Source: a virus
IMG/VR virus record: IMGVR_UViG_3300048792_000052
Location: 1-54,663 of that record
Direction: 5' to 3' (one strand)
Length of the DNA stretch: 54,663 bases
Made by a program: the position numbers and the translations under genes. Positions 43,433 through 54,436 of this stretch are shown piece by piece. The notes beneath the pieces were generated by a model that had not been told where the DNA came from, made no database searches, and was given only the letters and a program-made list of their open reading frames with translations. Positions within the stretch are counted from its first letter, which is position 1; each line of letters begins with the position of its first letter.

Positions 43433-43602
43433 GCGCGCCCTCTCAACTCAATCTCTTTGAACCGAAGGAGGAGAAGTACAAATACGGAACGCATTACTAC
43501 CGGTGCGGTGGGTGGTTCATCACCAAAGACAGTTTTGTGTACATCCAGCTCAACGGCGAACTTCGTCCGAAACCGCGCAAGAAGAAACGGAGGCGACGAT
43601 GA
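43429..43602 (+). CDS. Small basic-tailed protein
   Basis: A protein of 57 residues: MSAPSQLNLFEPKEEKYKYG, then THYYRCGGWFITKDSF and a basic end (KPRKKKRRRR). The QLNLF start resembles a beta-clamp-binding (QLxLF) motif, which would link it to the host replication clamp; this is an inference from one motif. ATGA overlaps at both ends tie it to its neighbours. Confidence 0.6.
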   Translation: MSAPSQLNLFEPKEEKYKYGTHYYRCGGWFITKDSFVYIQLNGELRPKPRKKKRRRR

Positions 43603-44000
43603 GAATCCAGTTTGCGGAAATCCGCAATATCAAAGTGGAGGATGTGCTTGCCCACTACGGAGTGGAAACGCGCAAGCGGTCCACTACGGAACTGGTAGCC
43701 AACTGCCCGTTCCCGTCCCATAAGGAAACGGAACATAAAAACGGGAATCCTACTCTCTGCATTTCGCTCGAACTGAACCGCTGGTTCTGCCAGAGTTCGA
43801 AGTGCCGAGAAATATCCAACAAGCCCAAAGGCGGGGACTGCATTGATGTCGTCGCCATGATGGAGAATCTGACTCCGCTCGATGCCGCGAAAAAGCTGGC
43901 GGAGTTGTTCGGCGGAAATCCGCAATCTCGACCAAACACTGTAAGAGCGGACACCCCTCACCCCCTTCAAAGCCGAATCCTCCCCTCGCCTTCACGCTGA
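43599..44000 (+). CDS. DnaG-like primase, N-terminal zinc-finger part (frameshifted)
   Basis: A product of 133 residues as it stands. A CHC2-type zinc finger reads LVANCPFPSHKETEH, then PTLCISLELNRWFCQSSKC and GGDCIDVVAMMENLTPLDAA. Residues after about 120 (TPHPLQSRILPSPSR) have no primase character. The next frame continues with SKPNPPLAFTLKLDPDHPAI, a normal primase linker. One missing C in the run of five at 43961-43965 explains this. It primes DNA synthesis for the element if the frame is restored. Confidence 0.8.
   Translation: MRIQFAEIRNIKVEDVLAHYGVETRKRSTTELVANCPFPSHKETEHKNGNPTLCISLELNRWFCQSSKCREISNKPKGGDCIDVVAMMENLTPLDAAKKLAELFGGNPQSRPNTVRADTPHPLQSRILPSPSR
43614..43625. promoter_or_regulatory. 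Dispersed palindrome, copy 8
   Basis: Exact GCGGAAATCCGC, 12 bases after the primase start codon, in frame as Ala-Glu-Ile-Arg. Confidence 0.7.
43912..43923. promoter_or_regulatory. Dispersed palindrome, copy 9
   Basis: Exact GCGGAAATCCGC, second copy in the same primase gene, in a different frame from copy 8, so codon use does not explain both. Confidence 0.7.
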
Positions 44001-44056
44001 AACTTGACCCCGATCACCCAGCCATCAGAGAAAGGGGAATCAGTCTGGAAACGGCG

Positions 44057-44491
44057 ATGGAGTTCGGAGTGGGGTTTTTCTCTGGCAAGGGAAGCATGGC
44101 TAATAGAGTGTGCTTCCCCATCAGAGAAAACGGCGCGATCGTGGCTTACGCGGGCCGGACCATTTTGCCCGTTTCGGATGAGAACCCTAAATGGAAGATT
44201 CCTGCCGGTCTTCAGCGCACGTTTGTCTACGGGTTAGAAAAGTGCGATCCGGCAAAACCACTCATCCTATGCGAGTCGCCGTGGGGATGTCTATGGCTAT
44301 TTCAGCATGGACGGCAAGCCGCGGCGCTCGTCGCTTGCAGTATGACATCCGAACAAGAAAAGCGGCTCGAGCCGTTCAAGGTTATCCAGCTCGCTTTTGA
44401 CAATGACCAATCGGGCCGCGATGCTACCGCAAAGATAGTTGAACGTTTGCGCGGGAAGCACACGGTACTGAAATCGTACCTGAAGGAATAG
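44057..44491 (+). CDS. DnaG-like primase, TOPRIM part (frameshifted)
   Basis: A product of 144 residues from the ATG at 44057, but the frame is open back to about 43966 and continues the primase linker from there. FGVGFFSGKGSMANRVCFPI, then IVAYAGRTI, is the usual lead-in. The TOPRIM catalytic Glu region is LILCESPWGCLWLFQHG and the DxD-type motif is IQLAFDNDQSGRDATAKI. It is one gene with the zinc-finger part. A terminator follows at once. Whether the frameshift is biological or a base-calling error in a C run cannot be decided here. Confidence 0.8.
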   Translation: MEFGVGFFSGKGSMANRVCFPIRENGAIVAYAGRTILPVSDENPKWKIPAGLQRTFVYGLEKCDPAKPLILCESPWGCLWLFQHGRQAAALVACSMTSEQEKRLEPFKVIQLAFDNDQSGRDATAKIVERLRGKHTVLKSYLKE

Positions 44492-46303: not shown

Positions 46304-47701
46304 TTAGAGCTTCGTAACGTTCTTCTTCATCTCCTTGTCGTCACTGTGCGTCCAGTAGGTAGGCAGGAGAAGCTCGAAAATCATGCGCAGCTTCCCGTCA
46401 TTGCCATCCACCTCTGCTTTCTCGCGGAGTGGCGTTTTGTAGTCCCGGCTCGTATACCCGTCGTGCTTCTTCGCGAGGGCCTTCAACCCGTAGCGTTTTA
46501 GAAGGGGCATGGTCTTGTTCGAACTCGCATCGTGAAACATCAAATCGAATAGTGCGTCGAGATGCTTCTGCGAGAGCGGCCATTTCACTTTCACCAGCCC
46601 ATCGCACACTGCCTTGTCGAAGGCGAGCCGCCTGGCCTGCTCTTTCTCGCGCTCTTTCTTGCGCTTCTCTTTTTCTTTCTCGCTCGGACGGTACTCGGTA
46701 TGCTGTTCCCCATGCTCGGAGCAATCGCCGCTGGCGCAAATCCAAATCGTCGTTCCCGTGTCCGGGCCGTCAACTACAATGCCCTGCACCGCGCCTTCGC
46801 AATACTTTTTTGTGTTCGAAGGCAGCCCCTCGTAATTACTCTCGGAAAGCACCGTCATTCCGGCGAACGTCTTGCGCTCCGGCGTGCCGTACTGCTTCAC
46901 GATGGGAACCAAGCCGCTCTCATCGGTCTTGATGCGATGCGTTATGTAGGCATCCATCTTGCGCTTCCAGCATTTGAGGTCGGTGCATTGGCCGTCCTTC
47001 ACCGAACCGAACAAGGCTTCACGTACTGGTGGACACTCCTTGCACACGCCGACGATTTTGGCGATGTCGGAATTTTTCACCCACGGCTGGAACGCCAACG
47101 GGCGGTAGAAGGTCTTGTCAATCCACTTCTTCAATTCGGGAACCGTGACGCCGCGCCACGTTTGCCCCATGTATTTCAACGCCGCGAGCTGGTCACGTTC
47201 GGCGAGCTTGGCGACGAGATACGCCGCACCGTCCGTCATTTCCCCTTTTCGGTATTCCTTGGCTGCTGCCGGACAAAGGTTGGTCAGGAATAATCTCTGC
47301 CGAACGTAATCCTCCGGCTTCCCGACTTTCACCGATATGTCTTTGACGGTCCGGTCCCCGTCCTCGATGAGCTGGCGGTACGCCTCGCCTTCTTCAAGCG
47401 GATGCACGTCCTCGCGCTGGAGGTTCTCGACGATCTGCGCTTCCCGCGCTTCATCGTCCGTCATGTCGACGACTTGCGCCGGGATCTCTTTCAGCCCGGC
47501 TTCCTTCGCCGCCCGGAGCCGACGATTGCCGGCGATGATCTCGTATCCTTTACCACTCTTGCGGGCGAGAACCGGCACGAGGATACCTTTTTCACTGACA
47601 CTCGCCACTAACTCACTAAACGATTTGCCCGCGAAGTCTGTGCCCCGCGGGTTGGTCTCCGATTCCCGGCATTCGGAAACCTTGAGATTCTGCAATTGCA
47701 T
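46304..47701 (-). CDS. ParB/KorB-like protein
   Basis: A protein of 465 residues. Residues 1-110 are a ParB/Spo0J N-terminal domain with the nucleotide-binding motifs GYEIIAGNRRLRAAKEAGLK and IVENLQREDVHPLEEGEAYR. A helix-turn-helix follows (TVKDISVKVGKPEDYVRQRL). The middle carries a Cys cluster (GVCKECPPVREALFGSVKDG, CTDLKCWKRK), and the C-terminal part is a charged coil plus a globular end. ParB-type proteins bind dispersed palindromes for partition or, like KorB, for global repression. No ParA is seen. It is the best candidate to bind the dispersed 12-bp palindrome. Confidence 0.85.
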   Translation of the reverse strand: MQLQNLKVSECRESETNPRGTDFAGKSFSELVASVSEKGILVPVLARKSGKGYEIIAGNRRLRAAKEAGLKEIPAQVVDMTDDEAREAQIVENLQREDVHPLEEGEAYRQLIEDGDRTVKDISVKVGKPEDYVRQRLFLTNLCPAAAKEYRKGEMTDGAAYLVAKLAERDQLAALKYMGQTWRGVTVPELKKWIDKTFYRPLAFQPWVKNSDIAKIVGVCKECPPVREALFGSVKDGQCTDLKCWKRKMDAYITHRIKTDESGLVPIVKQYGTPERKTFAGMTVLSESNYEGLPSNTKKYCEGAVQGIVVDGPDTGTTIWICASGDCSEHGEQHTEYRPSEKEKEKRKKEREKEQARRLAFDKAVCDGLVKVKWPLSQKHLDALFDLMFHDASSNKTMPLLKRYGLKALAKKHDGYTSRDYKTPLREKAEVDGNDGKLRMIFELLLPTYWTHSDDKEMKKNVTKL

Positions 47702-48268: not shown

Positions 48269-48610
48269 ATGAAATTCTGGAAAACAATCGGAACTGTGCT
48301 CGATAATATTTGGGCACCGGCAGGAGCTTTGGTTTTCGACCCTGACGGTGAACGGGGAAAGAACGATAACTACCTCCCAGAAAAGAGGCATGTGGGGTTC
48401 TGGTTCTTCGTGGCGGTCATCGCCCTGGTGGGATCGTGGATATTTAAGTGGTCCGACAAATACGCCGATGTGGCGGGCGTCGCGTTCATGGTCTGCCGAT
48501 TCGCCCTCGTGGAACGCCGGGTCGCTGATTTGACCATGAGTTTAAAAACTTTAGAATCCTCGCTTCAACGTCCTTCCGTTTCGTCCCCCACCGCTCCAAG
48601 GACGCCTTGA
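48269..48610 (+). CDS. Membrane protein overlapping the ATPase gene
   Basis: A protein of 113 residues: MKFWKTIGTVLDNIWAPAGA at the start, then one or two membrane segments (VGFWFFVAVIALVGSWIF and YADVAGVAFMVCRFALVE) and a polar tail. It converges with the VirD4-like gene and overlaps its 3' end by 125 bases. The long antisense overlap is unusual. The last 30 residues may be dispensable. Not recognised. Confidence 0.5.
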   Translation: MKFWKTIGTVLDNIWAPAGALVFDPDGERGKNDNYLPEKRHVGFWFFVAVIALVGSWIFKWSDKYADVAGVAFMVCRFALVERRVADLTMSLKTLESSLQRPSVSSPTAPRTP

Positions 48611-49769
48611 TGAGCTTCGTGGCGTTGGCTTCGTCCCCGCGCTTTTGTACGGGCGGGTTAGCTTCGAAATGGGATACCAGGGGTTCATTGCGTGCGTTGA
48701 ACGAGCGCGCGTAGAAGTGGTAGCGTGGCAGGTCGGTAATCTGATACGCAACGTCCTGTCCCCAATTGGTAGCCATCAGTTTCGCATCCTCTCCTGAAGC
48801 GTTGAAGATGATCTGCGTCGGGCAGTTGGCGAGCAGGTCTTTCGCAAATGGGAGCTGGTACATTCCCTGCGTACCGCTCACCAGGCTTACCCCATACTTC
48901 CTGCCTTCAGCCAACAAGGTTCCGAACCGTCCGCCGTGCGTGAAGTTGTGCGTCTCGTCCACCACCACCATGAAATGCGGTCTGGATTTCTGCCGCTCGC
49001 GCTTCAGGGCTGCGATGGAAACCATAGAGATGATGAGCGAGCCGAGGATTTGGGCAATTTCTTCACCGAGACGGCCTTTGGATAATCTGGCGACGACTAT
49101 CCGGCGCCCGTTCATCACTTCCAGAAAGTCCAATGAGTCCGGCTGGCCGATGATGGGCAGGATGGCCGGCCGAAGTAATTTGGCAACCTTGTTCAAGGGC
49201 GGAGAGAACTTGGACATCTGCTCCGAGTCGCGCAGTTTCTCGTCGTACTGCTCGCGGAACAGCTTGAGGAAGGGGTTGGCGGATTTCCGCAATACCGATT
49301 CTCGGAACTTGTCGTCCGCCATGAAACGGAACACATGGACTGGCGTAGGCCGGGGAAACGCCTCGCAAACCGCGTCGATGGCATTGATAATAACGCGGGC
49401 CGATTCATCGCCCCAAGCGGAACCGGCAAGAGATTTAAGCGTAGTAAAAAGTGATTCCTTGCCGAGTTCCAGTTCTTCGCCCGTTTTGAAGAAAAGAGGA
49501 TTGAACGGAGGCACGCGGGGAGCGTCGGGGTCTATCCAAATAAAATCCCTGGCGCGGGATTTGGGGATTAGTTTGGCTATCGCATCCGCCGCATCGCCGT
49601 GCGGGTCGATAAACAATCCCCCGTTGCCCTGGCGGATGTGTTCGACAAAAAGATTGATGAGCAAGCTGGACTTGCCCACGCCTGACATGCCCTCAATGTT
49701 TATGTGGCGCGCGGTGTCGATCGCGAGCGGTCTGTTGCTGATAAAGTCATTTCCGATGATTGCGTTCAT
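48486..49769 (-). CDS. VirD4/HerA-type DNA-translocating ATPase 1
   Basis: A protein of 427 residues. Walker A is GMSGVGKSS (residues 27-35) and Walker B is HFMVVVDETHNF in the C-terminal half. Further sensor-type segments are VSLVSGTQGMYQLPFAKDLL and ANCPTQIIFNASGEDAKLMA. This is the pattern of HerA/TraG/VirD4 ATPases that pump DNA through membranes or in packaging. No N-terminal membrane anchor is present, so it is a soluble form. It is downstream of a replication-relaxation gene and a second ATPase, a set seen on conjugative and integrative elements, not in normal siphophages. Confidence 0.82.
   Translation of the reverse strand: MNAIIGNDFISNRPLAIDTARHINIEGMSGVGKSSLLINLFVEHIRQGNGGLFIDPHGDAADAIAKLIPKSRARDFIWIDPDAPRVPPFNPLFFKTGEELELGKESLFTTLKSLAGSAWGDESARVIINAIDAVCEAFPRPTPVHVFRFMADDKFRESVLRKSANPFLKLFREQYDEKLRDSEQMSKFSPPLNKVAKLLRPAILPIIGQPDSLDFLEVMNGRRIVVARLSKGRLGEEIAQILGSLIISMVSIAALKRERQKSRPHFMVVVDETHNFTHGGRFGTLLAEGRKYGVSLVSGTQGMYQLPFAKDLLANCPTQIIFNASGEDAKLMATNWGQDVAYQITDLPRYHFYARSFNARNEPLVSHFEANPPVQKRGDEANATKLIKASLERWGTKRKDVEARILKFLNSWSNQRPGVPRGRIGRP
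49279..49290. promoter_or_regulatory. Dispersed palindrome, copy 11
   Basis: Exact GCGGATTTCCGC inside the first ATPase gene, in a frame encoding Arg-Lys-Ser-Ala. Confidence 0.7.
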
Positions 49770-49778
49770 GCTCTGGAA

Positions 49779-49849
49779 GCTGGGCGGTAGGATTCGAACC
49801 TACATCTCGCGGACAACTCCGCGTGCATCTACCGTTCTGCTACGCACAG
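49779..49849 (-). tRNA. tRNA-like gene with a non-standard anticodon loop
   Basis: It folds as a cloverleaf. The acceptor CTGTGCG/CGCCCAG has one mismatch. The D arm is GCA...TGC, the anticodon stem CGCGG/CCGCG, and the T arm GTAGG-TTCGAAT-CCTAC is perfect. The anticodon loop has only six bases (AGTTGT), so the anticodon is ambiguous (TTG or TGT are possible). No CCA is encoded. It lies 9 bases upstream of the first ATPase gene. It may be a decayed tRNA or a tRNA-like processing signal. Confidence 0.55.
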
Positions 49850-49930
49850 CTCTCAAAGTACGAAACATTAGCCCGCGTCCCAGCCCCCATCTCGGCTCAC
49901 AGCCGGAGAAGACTGGGAGGCAGGGAATGT

Positions 49931-49946
49931 GCGCGACATGTCGCGC
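49931..49946. promoter_or_regulatory. Perfect 16-bp palindrome
   Basis: GCGCGACATGTCGCGC lies between the replication-relaxation gene stop (49978) and the tRNA-like gene. It could be a DNA-processing site, an operator, or a small terminator stem. Confidence 0.4.
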
Positions 49947-49977
49947 CCCGCGAGTTTGGGTCGCGATTATTAGAAGT

Positions 49978-50703
49978 TTAACTCTCTGGCCTCAAAATGC
50001 TATACGCGCGATCGCGGAAGTTCTTGGGCGTCCACCAGATTTTGCCGGTGGGGTTTTTAGAAAACACATCGACGCTTGTGAACCAAAGCCTTGGAGTGTT
50101 TAAGGTGTCTTCAATCGACGCGAGCAGCATTTCAACCCTGCGCGTTGTTTGGACCACAATGTAGGTTCGCGGGAAGTGCTTGGCGTAGTCGGCCAGTTTC
50201 TCGCGGCTTACAGGATTCATGCGCTCGTATTCCATAGGACACCAGCCCGTACCGTCCTTGAGGTCGAAAAAGAGGTCGGGGACTTCGCCGTCAAAATCTT
50301 TCTGCAAGTCAGTGCGCCACCTGCGGAACTCGGCGCCGTCGAAATGCTTCGCGAGCAGAAGCTGGCAATCAGTGATGCCTTTTTCGTGCGGGAGCTGCAT
50401 GGGGGACTTCTTTTGGACGTACCACTTCCGGCTCGCCGCCCCGCGCTCAATCGCCTTCAAAGCTCCCTGCTCGGTAAGGAAATAGAGGAACTCCGAAAAG
50501 TCATTCTGCTGCACGCGTCCCAGGTATCCGTTCTCGCACAACCTGCGGAGGCGGACGTTGATGTAATCGAACTTGCATCCGAGCGCGGACTGCATTTGCT
50601 TCGTCGTCAGGAAAACGTACTTCGCGAACGCTTCATAGATCCGGTCGTCAGCCAGCATCGAATAGACGCGCCGGACGTTTCTTGCTTCGGCTTGGGGTAT
50701 CAC
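49978..50703 (-). CDS. Replication-relaxation-type protein (PF13814-like)
   Basis: Start at GTG 50703, preceded by AAAGGAG at ideal spacing; an ATG at 50730 lacks such a site. 241 residues. The N-terminal winged helix (KYVFLTTKQMQSALGCKFDY, then VRLRRLCENGYLGRVQQ) and the later beta-rich domain (DGEVPDLFFDLKDGTGWCPM, then EYERMNPVSREKLADYAKHF) fit the replication-relaxation family found on plasmids, ICEs and phages beside TraG-like ATPases. Its exact action is not settled. It overlaps the second ATPase gene by 56 bases, so the three form one operon. Confidence 0.78.
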   Translation of the reverse strand: MIPQAEARNVRRVYSMLADDRIYEAFAKYVFLTTKQMQSALGCKFDYINVRLRRLCENGYLGRVQQNDFSEFLYFLTEQGALKAIERGAASRKWYVQKKSPMQLPHEKGITDCQLLLAKHFDGAEFRRWRTDLQKDFDGEVPDLFFDLKDGTGWCPMEYERMNPVSREKLADYAKHFPRTYIVVQTTRRVEMLLASIEDTLNTPRLWFTSVDVFSKNPTGKIWWTPKNFRDRAYSILRPES

Positions 50704-52075
50704 GGGTGCTCCTTTCAAAGCTGTTTGCATGGGGTGGGAAAGAGTTAGGAAGGTTGTTTCTAAATAGTAAAGTTTCTGCGCTGGAATACAAGTAGGGCCG
50801 GAGCGGGGGAACTTTGTAGTGGTACGTCCGGTCCGGCAGGACGATCATGCACTGGTACTTCGGAAGGTTGAGTTTCTCCGCGAACTTGGCACGCTTTTCT
50901 TCTGGGGAATAATCCTCCCAGCCGGTCTGCACTTCCACCGATTGGGGCCGGAGCCGGTCGTGGGTGGTTATCTGGTCCCCGTCCGGGTATTCGGTAACGC
51001 TCGTGCCAATGTCGTCTTCGTATTCCGTGATATGGCTGATGCGCGGCTGCCGGTGCCAGTCCTCCGCCAGCTCGCGCGAGAAGGCATCCCCCGCCAACTT
51101 ATTGCGGATTTCCGCACTCAAGCCGCCGAAGATTACGCGGATGCCGGCGTTCACGGATAAAGATTCTTTCGTCCGTTCATCCATCTGGCCGGCGAAGTGG
51201 TGAATGATGGTGGCGCGGATGCCGGAAGCTAGGACCAGGTCAAGCATGGAACCCAAATCAGGGGAGCTGTATTCCTGCGCTTCATCGGCGTACAAGAATG
51301 TGGTATGCGGGTCGTTCGCATGCTCTATTCCAACAAGGGTGATGTCCGATAGGAGAAGGCCGAGGCAGATGCGGGCAGTTTCGCGTGGCAAGTGTGCGCT
51401 CGGGGTTGCGTTCACAAAAAGGCTGACGCCATTGCGAAAACACTCTCCGACTTCCAAGGGATCGGGCAGGGACATAACTTGCCGGAGCATGGAACTTGTA
51501 ATGAAAGGCCGGAGCCGGTTTCGGAGGGGCTTTACTTCGAACTTCCAGTCCGATTTATCAGTGTAGGAAATGCGGCGCATTTCTTCTCGGAACTGTTCGT
51601 CAGGCATGTCTTTCGAATAGTCGAGCCAGAGTTTTCGTTTGTCGTACTCCACCATGTCGAGCGCTTCGGTAAGAGGCATCTTCGAAACTGCGAGATGGGC
51701 AAAGAATGCTTCGGCCACTCTCGCGTAATTTTGCAATTCGGAGATGGGCTGGTTGGAGACGACTTTCAAAATCACTTCGGCAAGATGGTTGGCGTGCGTA
51801 GCGAGATCGCGTCCCGTGGGCAACGCAAAAGGATTCCAGGCAATCAGCCGATCGGGGTTCGATAGATTCAAGAACTTGGCTGGGTAGTTTGGATTGGCTT
51901 CGGCGACGAAGGCGACAAGTTTTTCGTAACCCTGCGATTTGTATTCCAGCCACATCATGGGATTGCCTGCCAAGATGTGGATGTGGCCATGACCGACTGC
52001 GAGCGTCGTCTTGCCGTACCGTGCGCGGCCGACAATTTCACAATGAGTTTTATAGGGCGCCCAACGGGGATGCAT
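50648..52075 (-). CDS. VirD4/HerA-type DNA-translocating ATPase 2
   Basis: Start at ATG 52075 (MHPRWAPYKTHCEIVGRARY), preceded by AAAGGAACCT; a longer reading from 52264 crosses an inverted repeat and is unlikely. 475 residues. Walker A is GRARYGKTT (16-24) and Walker B is TTFLYADEAQEY near 260, followed by GIRATIIHHFAGQMDERTKE. Related to, but clearly different from, the ATPase at 48486. The pair with the replication-relaxation protein looks like the core of a DNA mobilisation or replication-initiation module. A palindrome copy lies within it. Confidence 0.82.
   Translation of the reverse strand: MHPRWAPYKTHCEIVGRARYGKTTLAVGHGHIHILAGNPMMWLEYKSQGYEKLVAFVAEANPNYPAKFLNLSNPDRLIAWNPFALPTGRDLATHANHLAEVILKVVSNQPISELQNYARVAEAFFAHLAVSKMPLTEALDMVEYDKRKLWLDYSKDMPDEQFREEMRRISYTDKSDWKFEVKPLRNRLRPFITSSMLRQVMSLPDPLEVGECFRNGVSLFVNATPSAHLPRETARICLGLLLSDITLVGIEHANDPHTTFLYADEAQEYSSPDLGSMLDLVLASGIRATIIHHFAGQMDERTKESLSVNAGIRVIFGGLSAEIRNKLAGDAFSRELAEDWHRQPRISHITEYEDDIGTSVTEYPDGDQITTHDRLRPQSVEVQTGWEDYSPEEKRAKFAEKLNLPKYQCMIVLPDRTYHYKVPPLRPYLYSSAETLLFRNNLPNSFPPHANSFERSTRDTPSRSKKRPARLFDAG
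51104..51115. promoter_or_regulatory. Dispersed palindrome, copy 12
   Basis: Exact GCGGATTTCCGC inside ATPase 2, on the minus strand in frame as Ala-Glu-Ile-Arg. Confidence 0.7.
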
Positions 52076-52136
52076 AGGTTCCTTTCCGATAGAGATTAAG
52101 GCACGCCGAGTGAAGCGATAGCGGCCTGCGATAGTG

Positions 52137-52211
52137 CCTATCGGGGTATCCTGACCGTGCCCTGCTAAGGGATGCGAATAGTAAGAAGCAAGGGAAGGAT
52201 ACCCCGATAGG
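52137..52211. repeat. 15-bp perfect inverted repeat upstream of the ATPase module
   Basis: CCTATCGGGGTATCC (52137-52151) and GGATACCCCGATAGG (52197-52211) are separated by 45 bases. GCGATAG occurs at about 52116 and 52129 on one side and 52287 on the other. It lies 60 bases upstream of the ATPase 2 start. Such long inverted repeats beside a mobilisation operon are seen at transfer origins, replication origins and recombination sites. Which one applies is unknown. Confidence 0.6.
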
Positions 52212-52310
52212 AAAAGGCACGAGGCGAACAGGCAACCCGCGTGATAACAAGGGTTTGGCGGCATGGTCGCGAATTTTTCTTATCGAGCGATAGCATACTG
52301 CTAGTAAGGT

Positions 52311-52643
52311 CTAATGAACCTTGTCGGGATGGTGAAACTCACGAGCGACTTGTCCTTCGAGGTACTTATCGAAGTGTTTTTGCAAGTCCTGATCGCCAAC
52401 CTTGATTGCGGGGAGTTGGGTGTCTTTGAAAGAAGCGATGGCGTGGACAACCTCGATCTTTTTCTGGATGTCCCGCGCGGCGATTTCCGCTTCCGTGGGT
52501 TCGCGCGGCGGTGGAAGTGGTGGAGGTGGTGGTGGAAGGGGTGGCTCGGGTGGTGGAGCTGGTGGAGGCGGGTCGGGCTGCAAGACCTTGTAGAGGCTCA
52601 AGCAGCCCAGAGCAACCAGCAGAACTAAGAGAAGGCCGCTCAT
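52311..52643 (-). CDS. Proline-rich membrane-anchored protein
   Basis: A protein of 110 residues. A hydrophobic N-terminus (MSGLLLVLLVALGCLSLY) contains a possible lipobox (ALGC). It is followed by about 30 residues that are nearly all Pro, then a helical end (AARDIQKKIEVVHAIASFKD). Proline-rich small lipoproteins act as outer-membrane spanins or as envelope linkers. It is far from the lysis genes, so a link to the transfer-like module downstream is also possible. It overlaps the HTH gene upstream by 4 bases. Confidence 0.6.
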   Translation of the reverse strand: MSGLLLVLLVALGCLSLYKVLQPDPPPPAPPPEPPLPPPPPPLPPPREPTEAEIAARDIQKKIEVVHAIASFKDTQLPAIKVGDQDLQKHFDKYLEGQVAREFHHPDKVH

Positions 52644-52855
52644 GGGCGGCCTCCGTTCTTTTTCTTGGTGATGAGTTGTTTCAGTTCGTCGGCCCGCTGG
52701 CGGGGAACTTTGCGGGTTTCGTTCGTTTCGCCGGTGCCGATGTTCAGGTAACCGCCGTACTTAATCAAAAGTCGGCGCCCTGAGTGGTAGGACGCGCCAA
52801 TGTAGGCGGCGAACTCTTTTACGGTGAGGGTCTCCTCATAAACGATACTTTCCAT
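52640..52855 (-). CDS. Excisionase-like HTH protein
   Basis: A protein of 71 residues with a good ribosome site (CAGGAGATTGCGAC). LTVKEFAAYIGASYHSGRRL, then LIKYGGYLNIGTG, is a winged-helix/MerR-like DNA-binding domain of the type used by recombination directionality factors. It is the first gene after the integrase in the same direction. Role as excisionase is inferred from fold and position. Confidence 0.72.
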   Translation of the reverse strand: MESIVYEETLTVKEFAAYIGASYHSGRRLLIKYGGYLNIGTGETNETRKVPRQRADELKQLITKKKNGGRP

Positions 52856-53206: not shown

Positions 53207-54268
53207 TTATGAAAATTGCTTCACGCGGACGAGCTGGGGCTTCCAGGTGGAACGGATAAGTTTTGTGAGCTTCTTTTGCCGCGCCCGGTTCCATCCAGCG
53301 TAAACTGTCGCAACGAGTTGTGGGCTGTTGCCGAGGATCATAGCGACTTCGGTAACAGGAACGCCTTGCTCCAAGAGGGATGCAGCCAGGGTGTGGCGAT
53401 AGCGATGGGGATGCGCGCCTTCCACCTTCGCACGGGTAAAGAGCTTGGAAAGGTCGTCCCTGAAATTATTGACGGCGGTTTGCTTCTTCCCTTCCCCGGT
53501 CGCGAAGAAGAAGTCATTGCTCTTGTTCGGACATTTTTCGAGGGCTTCAACGACGTGTTCAGGGAGTGGCAGCCAGACGGGCGCACCGGTTTTTGCGGTG
53601 TATAAAAAAAGGTTTCCGTCTTTCAGCTTGCGGCGCTGGAGCATCACGGCGTCGGCGATTCGTAAACCGCTATGGCGCAACAAGAGAACCATTGCGTAAT
53701 GCCTCGGATGCTTCGATGCTTCGGCTTCGATAGCGAGAAGTTCCTCCGGCTCGAAAGGGGAAACTTGTTTCGGCGGAACTTTCGGCATGGCAAGATCAAG
53801 CGCGGGATTCTTTTTCACCCACTCCTGCCGGATGGCGTGCTTCCAAAAACTCCGCAGCCGTTCGATGTACTTTGCGCTCGTGAGCGCGGACCACGTCCAC
53901 TCGTTCCTGAACTTTTCGATGAGGGGTGTGTTGATGGCGTTGAGGGGAAGATCGGTGAACGCGGCGAGCTTGTCCAAGATTATTTCAAACTTCCGAACGG
54001 TCGCCGATGAGACGTTTTTCTTCTTGAGATGTTCAAGAAAAAGTCTCTTGGCCTCGGCTACCGTGACGGAGGGCTCGGCTGGCGCTTCGCCATCCTCGAT
54101 CTGGCGCTTTAAGACTTCCCCACGCGTCCAGCTCCGCGTTTTCAAACTGCGGCGGATGTACTGGCCCTCAACGGTTCCCTCGCAATGTACCGCGCACCGG
54201 CACTTTCTGAAGTAGCGGTCCTCCTTGTGGGGGCATTTGGATTTGTGCCGTCGCCAGAGGATGAGCAT
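53207..54268 (-). CDS. int: Tyrosine site-specific integrase
   Basis: A protein of 353 residues. The catalytic set is R203 (HSGLRIADAV), K226 (YTAKTGAPVW), H288 and R291 (HPHRYRHTLA), N314 in the usual His/Trp position (LGNSPQ) and nucleophile Y323 (ATVYAGW). The core-binding SAM-like domain spans about 70-155. The first 30 residues hold a Cys/His cluster (CPHKEDRYFRKCRCAVHCEG) that may bind zinc and is seen in some acidobacterial phage integrases (from memory). It ends the element 75 bases from the tRNA-Sec 3' end, its target. Confidence 0.95.
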   Translation of the reverse strand: MLILWRRHKSKCPHKEDRYFRKCRCAVHCEGTVEGQYIRRSLKTRSWTRGEVLKRQIEDGEAPAEPSVTVAEAKRLFLEHLKKKNVSSATVRKFEIILDKLAAFTDLPLNAINTPLIEKFRNEWTWSALTSAKYIERLRSFWKHAIRQEWVKKNPALDLAMPKVPPKQVSPFEPEELLAIEAEASKHPRHYAMVLLLRHSGLRIADAVMLQRRKLKDGNLFLYTAKTGAPVWLPLPEHVVEALEKCPNKSNDFFFATGEGKKQTAVNNFRDDLSKLFTRAKVEGAHPHRYRHTLAASLLEQGVPVTEVAMILGNSPQLVATVYAGWNRARQKKLTKLIRSTWKPQLVRVKQFS

Positions 54269-54341: not shown

Positions 54342-54363
54342 TGGCGGAAGCTAGTGGGAGTCG
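54342..54363. repeat. Right attachment site (attR core)
   Basis: 22 bp identical to 2112-2133. It is the 3' end of the tRNA-Sec gene: the CCA, discriminator G, acceptor 3' strand and part of the T arm. Integration thus keeps the tRNA gene intact. Confidence 0.92.
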
Positions 54364-54436
54364 AACCCACCTGCGACACGGAGTGCCCCACGCTGGTTTT
54401 GAAGACCAGGCCCAGCACCGGCCAAGACTAGCTTCC
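54342..54436 (-). tRNA. selC: tRNA-Sec (anticodon TCA)
   Basis: 95 bases including an encoded CCA. The 8-bp acceptor GGAAGCTA/TAGCTTCC and the 5-bp T stem (GTGGG-TTCGACT-CCCAC), the anticodon loop CTTCAAA and a long extra arm are the hallmarks of bacterial selenocysteine tRNA. The host therefore probably makes selenoproteins. selC is a classic phage and island integration site. The gene is complete despite the insertion. Confidence 0.95.

Follow-up and report, generated by a model that had tools for sequence, protein, structure and literature searches.

Relaxase and coupling-type ATPase genes are the usual markers by which conjugative or mobilisable elements are recognised, and their presence in a tailed phage raises the question of what they do there. 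The window considered here is the whole of IMG/VR virus record IMGVR_UViG_3300048792_000052 (54,663 nucleotides). It contains a complete temperate siphovirus provirus of about 52.2 kb, inserted in a tRNA-Sec gene with host sequence on both sides, and an earlier note made from the letters alone had pointed to two different VirD4/HerA-type ATPases that flank a replication-relaxation protein (Replic_Relax) in this genome. Pfam, fold comparison and Walker motifs agree with that description, as do the TerL gene that the note listed and the portal, capsid, tape measure and tail genes found with it. The trio is a fixed core of the phage lineage and is accompanied by a conserved long inverted repeat. 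At a rough probability of 45%, trio and repeat are best explained as a self-contained module by which the excised phage DNA would be nicked and translocated to start replication. The features concerned are as follows.

48486 to 49769, minus strand: ATPase2, TrwB/TraG-type by Pfam, with 65-75% identity in 12 relatives, N-terminal membrane segment absent.
49978 to 50730, minus strand: Replic_Relax (MOBC-type) protein by Pfam and predicted structure, between the ATPase genes.
50648 to 52075, minus strand: ATPase1, VirD4/TrwB fold by predicted structure, own membrane segment absent.
52138 to 52210, minus strand: long inverted repeat in the leader of the trio genes, a putative origin-like cis element, with CTATCG/CGATAG repeats around it.
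52311 to 52643, minus strand: small protein just upstream of ATPase1, with one membrane segment predicted by hydropathy scan and then a proline-rich stretch.

The order ATPase1, Replic_Relax, ATPase2 is kept in the loci with enough sequence. A search for relatives of the terminase gave 42 loci; the viral records compared are mostly fragments, the gene maps come from simple mechanical calling of open reading frames (ORFs), and Pfam can miss diverged genes. Among 25 larger records sharing the terminase, ATPase1 and Replic_Relax occur together in eight and neither occurs in 17. The length of sequence beyond the terminase, computed for 24 of the 25 (the carrier G011 was left out), separates the two groups without overlap, with 16.3-27.2 kb in seven carriers and 2.2-13.6 kb in the 17 non-carriers. 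Absence of the trio is therefore explained by truncation, because all 17 are too short on that side, which leaves no informative negative among them; the idea of an accessory trio, drawn from its absence in 17 of the 25 records, was rejected on the same ground. The seven non-carriers that were fetched end before or slightly past the primase gene, several of them at exact gene boundaries. Many IMG/VR provirus records (G318, G320, G321, G325 and G329, loci L095-L115) break off at the primase or shortly after it, at the point where the trio is expected to start; the boundary caller may have cut the trio off these records, mistaking it for part of the host or of a plasmid. When 399 genomes of the host class were searched for the terminase, no match was returned, so chromosomal proviruses lacking the trio lie out of reach.

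The position of the trio is that of a phage gene set. In the window it lies inside the attachment (att) sites, between the integrase and primase genes, and in a provirus on a 232-kb contig of an acidobacterial metagenome-assembled genome (MAG) it lies between the copies of a 23-bp repeat at the 3′ end of a tRNA-Met gene (116013, 168104). A second phage, G316, adjoins the same tRNA-Sec gene and shares 95% identity with the window in the integrase, 91% in the terminase and 96% in the capsid, whereas its trio has diverged to 39% (ATPase1), 56% (Replic_Relax) and 52% (ATPase2). In so close a relative the genes have been swapped as a block and not lost. The view that the trio is extra to the needs of the phage is not supported, as the trio is present wherever the sequence of a relative extends far enough. 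The earlier note had set its proposal against a conserved part of a known phage group with a purely virion or lysis role; a conserved part of a phage group is what was found, and nothing suggests a virion or lysis role.

Related gene sets turn up in other elements. Locus L017 has two ATPases and a Replic_Relax gene. Among viral proteins, gp146 of Bacillus phage G matches the fold of the window's Replic_Relax protein best (E 9.9e-6), and the same phage has two matches to the ATPase profiles, gp155 and gp156. Sets with two ATPases thus also exist outside this lineage. Phage G differs in being a jumbo phage with gp146 about ten genes away, by gene number, from its ATPases. An additional P-loop ATPase-like ORF of 558 amino acids stands in the early region of G322 (L101:3909-5585). 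The G030 contig, apparently a different type of element, encodes a 1039-residue protein matching the ATPase profiles (L048:9612-12731); nearby genes in L047 code for a Replic_Relax protein, a further ATPase and a primase.

The inverted repeat belonging to the trio is, at the level of sequence comparison, what this analysis adds. The 15-bp inverted repeat of the earlier note corresponds to arms at 52137-52160 and 52188-52211 that are conserved across relatives and 88% complementary. Such a repeat stands upstream of the trio genes, between them and the integrase side, in 17/17 loci with sequence there, with loops of 27-69 nt between aligned 17-bp arms. In the scan, shuffled regions reached a best score of at most 12 and the conserved repeats found there scored 12-21; the remaining ones were recovered by a wider search. 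When the loci are aligned on a GGG core, 15 of the 17 pairs have changed on both sides, with 62 double changes against one single (wobble) change, and neither any of 500 shuffles nor any slid version approaches this pattern. The percentage of paired positions is partly fixed by construction, since inverted repeats were what the arm pairs were selected for; this selection affects the way the changes are distributed over the loci to a lesser degree. The near-absence of G-U pairs suggests that the repeat acts as a dyad at the level of DNA rather than as an RNA hairpin. For searching, an element model (R2) was used and an arms-only model with a short artificial linker (R1) was set aside. R2 matches the window at 52132-52216 (E 8.8e-7). 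Over 1.13 Mb it gives a single hit in each genome, every time upstream of the trio, and it detects a truncated copy in L005, a locus left out of model building. No Rfam family matches the repeat at its gathering score.

The protein between the ATPases matches PF13814 with E 9e-9 and 36.1 bits against a gathering cut-off of 25.3. This family is the MobC relaxase family of CONJscan (PMC5357655). Relaxases of the MOBC family have PD-(D/E)XK restriction enzymes as relatives, with an N-terminal winged helix in a prototype that binds direct repeats at its own origin of transfer, oriT (PMC12857230). The predicted structure of the window protein has the same plan, with a winged helix ahead of a core of alpha-beta-beta-beta-alpha-beta topology that bears the PD-(D/E)XK signature. 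In this core D152 immediately precedes strand 2, E167 belongs to strand 3, and K178 is part of the helix that comes after it. H115, P151, D152, E167 and K178 are invariant across 12 Replic_Relax sequences. By family and predicted fold the protein is a candidate relaxase of the MOBC family.

Both ATPases carry Walker A and Walker B motifs and have been assigned the TrwB/VirD4 fold, ATPase2 by Pfam (TrwB_AAD_bind E 1.3e-7, TraG-D_C E 2.4e-5) and ATPase1 by fold search. ATPase1 has no match in Pfam, PHROG, PADLOC or NCBIfam; its predicted structure (mean predicted local distance difference test score, pLDDT, 76.5) has as top match the conjugative coupling protein TrwB (1e9s, E 2.6e-10), followed by others including HerA, VirB4 and DndH structures. 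Its listed ORF, 50648-52264, is too long at the 5′ end. The homologues begin near the motif MHPRW, which puts the start near 52075, and the 'extra' N-terminus is the leader that contains the inverted repeat. Searches of annotated phages and plasmids with ATPase1 and Replic_Relax gave no match. IMG/VR contigs and three MAGs of Acidobacteria hold relatives of ATPase2 with 62-75% identity; the hosts of this virus family are soil bacteria, Acidobacteria. Distant relatives of ATPase2 (48486-49769) are found on haloarchaeal, Sulfolobus and Streptomyces plasmids, most of them typed as non-mobilizable. The earlier description of a DNA-transfer-type gene set therefore stands in the form of a MOBC-family nuclease, two ATPases of VirD4/TrwB fold and a putative dyad DNA site of their own.

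The two proteins resemble VirD4/TrwB coupling proteins in fold and motifs and differ from them in that the N-terminal transmembrane domain is absent from both. A predicted membrane segment is nevertheless close at hand, either in a gene upstream of ATPase1 or fused to ATPase1, in 14/17 loci. By a simple hydropathy scan and rough ORF calling, on which the statistic rests, the probability that so many loci would show this by chance is about 3e-4 when a segment in either of two upstream ORFs is accepted, and 9e-3 when three tries are allowed.

The remaining features of the provirus bear on how the trio might be used.

2112 to 54363, no strand: provirus, with a 22-bp direct repeat at either end (attL 2112-2133, attR 54342-54363).
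54346 to 54436, minus strand: tRNA-Sec gene, its 3′ end overlapped by the 22-bp att repeat.
53207 to 54268, minus strand: tyrosine integrase adjoining attR (Pfam Phage_integrase, E 1.4e-18).
52640 to 52855, minus strand: small protein, possibly an excisionase or helix-turn-helix (HTH) protein, judged by its position and by small HTH-like ORFs there in relatives; it is without a database match.
49778 to 49850, minus strand: tRNA-like sequence separating the Replic_Relax gene from the ATPase2 gene, its anticodon loop 6 nt long.
46304 to 47701, minus strand: ParB-like protein (ParB_N, E 3e-22).
43602 to 43943 and 43985 to 44488, plus strand: DnaG-type primase in two reading frames, intact in relatives.

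The tRNA-like sequence scores below the Rfam gathering threshold, has no counterpart at the same place in six relatives and is probably degenerate or incidental. The split of the primase, which is one frame in relatives, reflects a natural break or else an error in the sequence. In the window no gene was recognised for a replicative helicase, an initiator or a polymerase, and none is among the Pfam families listed for two relatives (25 of 28). Just outside attL, an acetyltransferase gene (1585-2097) lies behind a small gene (region 1274-2097); the window's protein set includes a match to a TacA1-type antitoxin, and the two are probably a host toxin-antitoxin pair of TacAT-like type.

The nearby ParB-like gene noticed earlier is real and is conserved in G011, but G316 lacks it while having a trio; no ParA was recognised in the window. 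A palindrome, GCGGA-NN-TCCGC, occurs at 12 sites in the window, from 4193 to 51104, against 0.5 expected in shuffles, in 10 copies in G316 and in 0-3 copies in other relatives. ParB sites were rejected as its source because G316 has its 10 copies without a matching ParB. From its distribution the palindrome resembles a binding site scattered over the genome, for example a stoperator, that is not tied to ParB.

In the replication model, the winged helix of Replic_Relax would bind the inverted repeat or the repeats surrounding it, and the PD-(D/E)XK site would nick one strand. The two VirD4/TrwB-type ATPases, hexamers by analogy, would load on the opened DNA and translocate it, with ATPase1 probably tethered to the membrane through the small membrane protein. 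Synthesis of the second strand would then be started by the primase encoded nearby, and the outcome would be nick-dependent (relaxase-like) replication of the phage circle. This is preferred over mating because no replicative helicase, initiator or polymerase was recognised, and because the module is universal where this can be tested while the mating-pore gene VirB4 is found in 75/299 sampled genomes of the class and in 0/15 viral records.

Several points weigh against the replication model. VirD4/TrwB ATPases are not known to serve as replicative helicases. A host helicase might serve the phage, diverged replication genes could have been missed by Pfam, and the inverted repeat could be a control site of the operon. 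In the fold search with Replic_Relax, no solved nuclease structure ranked high and the winged helix dominated. The membrane proteins by ATPase1 fit DNA transport at a membrane better than replication in the cytoplasm, and on account of this membrane link transfer stays the main rival.

Conjugative mobilisation is accordingly the alternative with most in its favour, though an unlikely one. The trio would be a mobilisation cassette like those of integrative and mobilizable elements (IMEs), with the repeat as oriT and the ATPases coupling the nicked circle to a type IV secretion system (T4SS) of the host, so that mating would take place besides spread by virions. The family assignments of Replic_Relax and the ATPases fit this, as do the membrane segments beside or fused to ATPase1, which recall coupling proteins, and the oriT-like position of an inverted repeat adjoining the genes. 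Streptococcal IMEs pair a MOBC relaxase with a VirD4 coupling protein beside the integrase (PMC5357655). MOBC modules in general (pAD1 TraX, CloDF13 MobB/MobC, streptococcal IME class 8) share PF13814, the winged helix with PD-(D/E)XK, a VirD4-type partner and a nearby integrase with the phage set, which differs in belonging to a tailed-phage core, in having two ATPases, where mobilisation needs no two of coupling type, in its long covarying inverted repeat and in that nicking is here predicted. No direct similarity was detected to the genes of CloDF13, the MobC prototype: none of its ORFs matched the Replic_Relax profile, the matches of its genes do not exceed about 6 bits, and tblastn of Replic_Relax against plasmids gave no match. 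VirB4 in the class, and in three of seven module-carrying MAGs, supplies possible partners, yet only about a quarter of the sampled genomes have it although the trio is universal where testable. An excess in module-carrying hosts was not shown (3/7 against 25%).

Segregation or plasmid-like maintenance, in which FtsK-type ATPases and ParB would partition or resolve an extrachromosomal prophage, is improbable. Both the window and G011 have a ParB gene next to the trio, and Replic_Relax genes are known from Bacillus Tyroviruses and the Izhevsk and Novomoskovsk phages (PMC9703825, PMC7685451, PMC9658697). In Tyroviruses a T4SS-type protein adjoins the replication-relaxation protein and the authors read similar gene sets as plasmid-prophage genes (PMC9703825); in Novomoskovsk, Replic_Relax accompanies an FtsK-type protein (PMC9703825, PMC7685451, PMC9658697). 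Unlike the present lineage, those phages have their own ParM/ParG-type or ribbon-helix-helix (RHH) partition genes and their own replication genes, and the Tyrovirus region is missing in some members, while here the module is universal where testable and has two ATPases and the repeat. Against segregation stand the trio of G316 without ParB, the lack of a recognised ParA, integrases at tRNA genes in the examined proviruses and dispersed palindromes that do not follow ParB. A plasmid-like or mobilisable form of the element, as first suggested, is only possible, given integration in a tRNA gene by a tyrosine integrase, no recognised ParA, ParB missing in G316 and no VirB4 in the 15 viral records. 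Defence or superinfection exclusion by a nuclease and HerA-like ATPase pair attacking incoming DNA is the least probable explanation. In its favour, defence systems that pair HerA with a nuclease are known, DndH and HerA are among the structures similar to ATPase1, and ATPase2 matches the single PADLOC model mad8 (E 4.7e-17). Against it, this is the only substantial PADLOC match, with none for Replic_Relax or ATPase1 and no complete defence-system gene set, and the module is in every testable relative at one place with a covarying cis element, as core rather than variable cargo.

What the locus adds to the biology of these phages is that genes of this kind are fixed in a tailed-phage lineage, together with a cis element that gives an exact candidate site. 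It is conceivable, if rather doubtful, that the lineage has fixed a relaxase and coupling-ATPase module with an oriT-like repeat as a necessity of its life cycle, so that its genome would be nicked and pumped in plasmid-like fashion and may move by virions as well as by mating. If the module starts phage replication, it would be an unusual case of a siphovirus whose replication begins in relaxase fashion; if its role is to move DNA, transduction and conjugation would be joined in one element.

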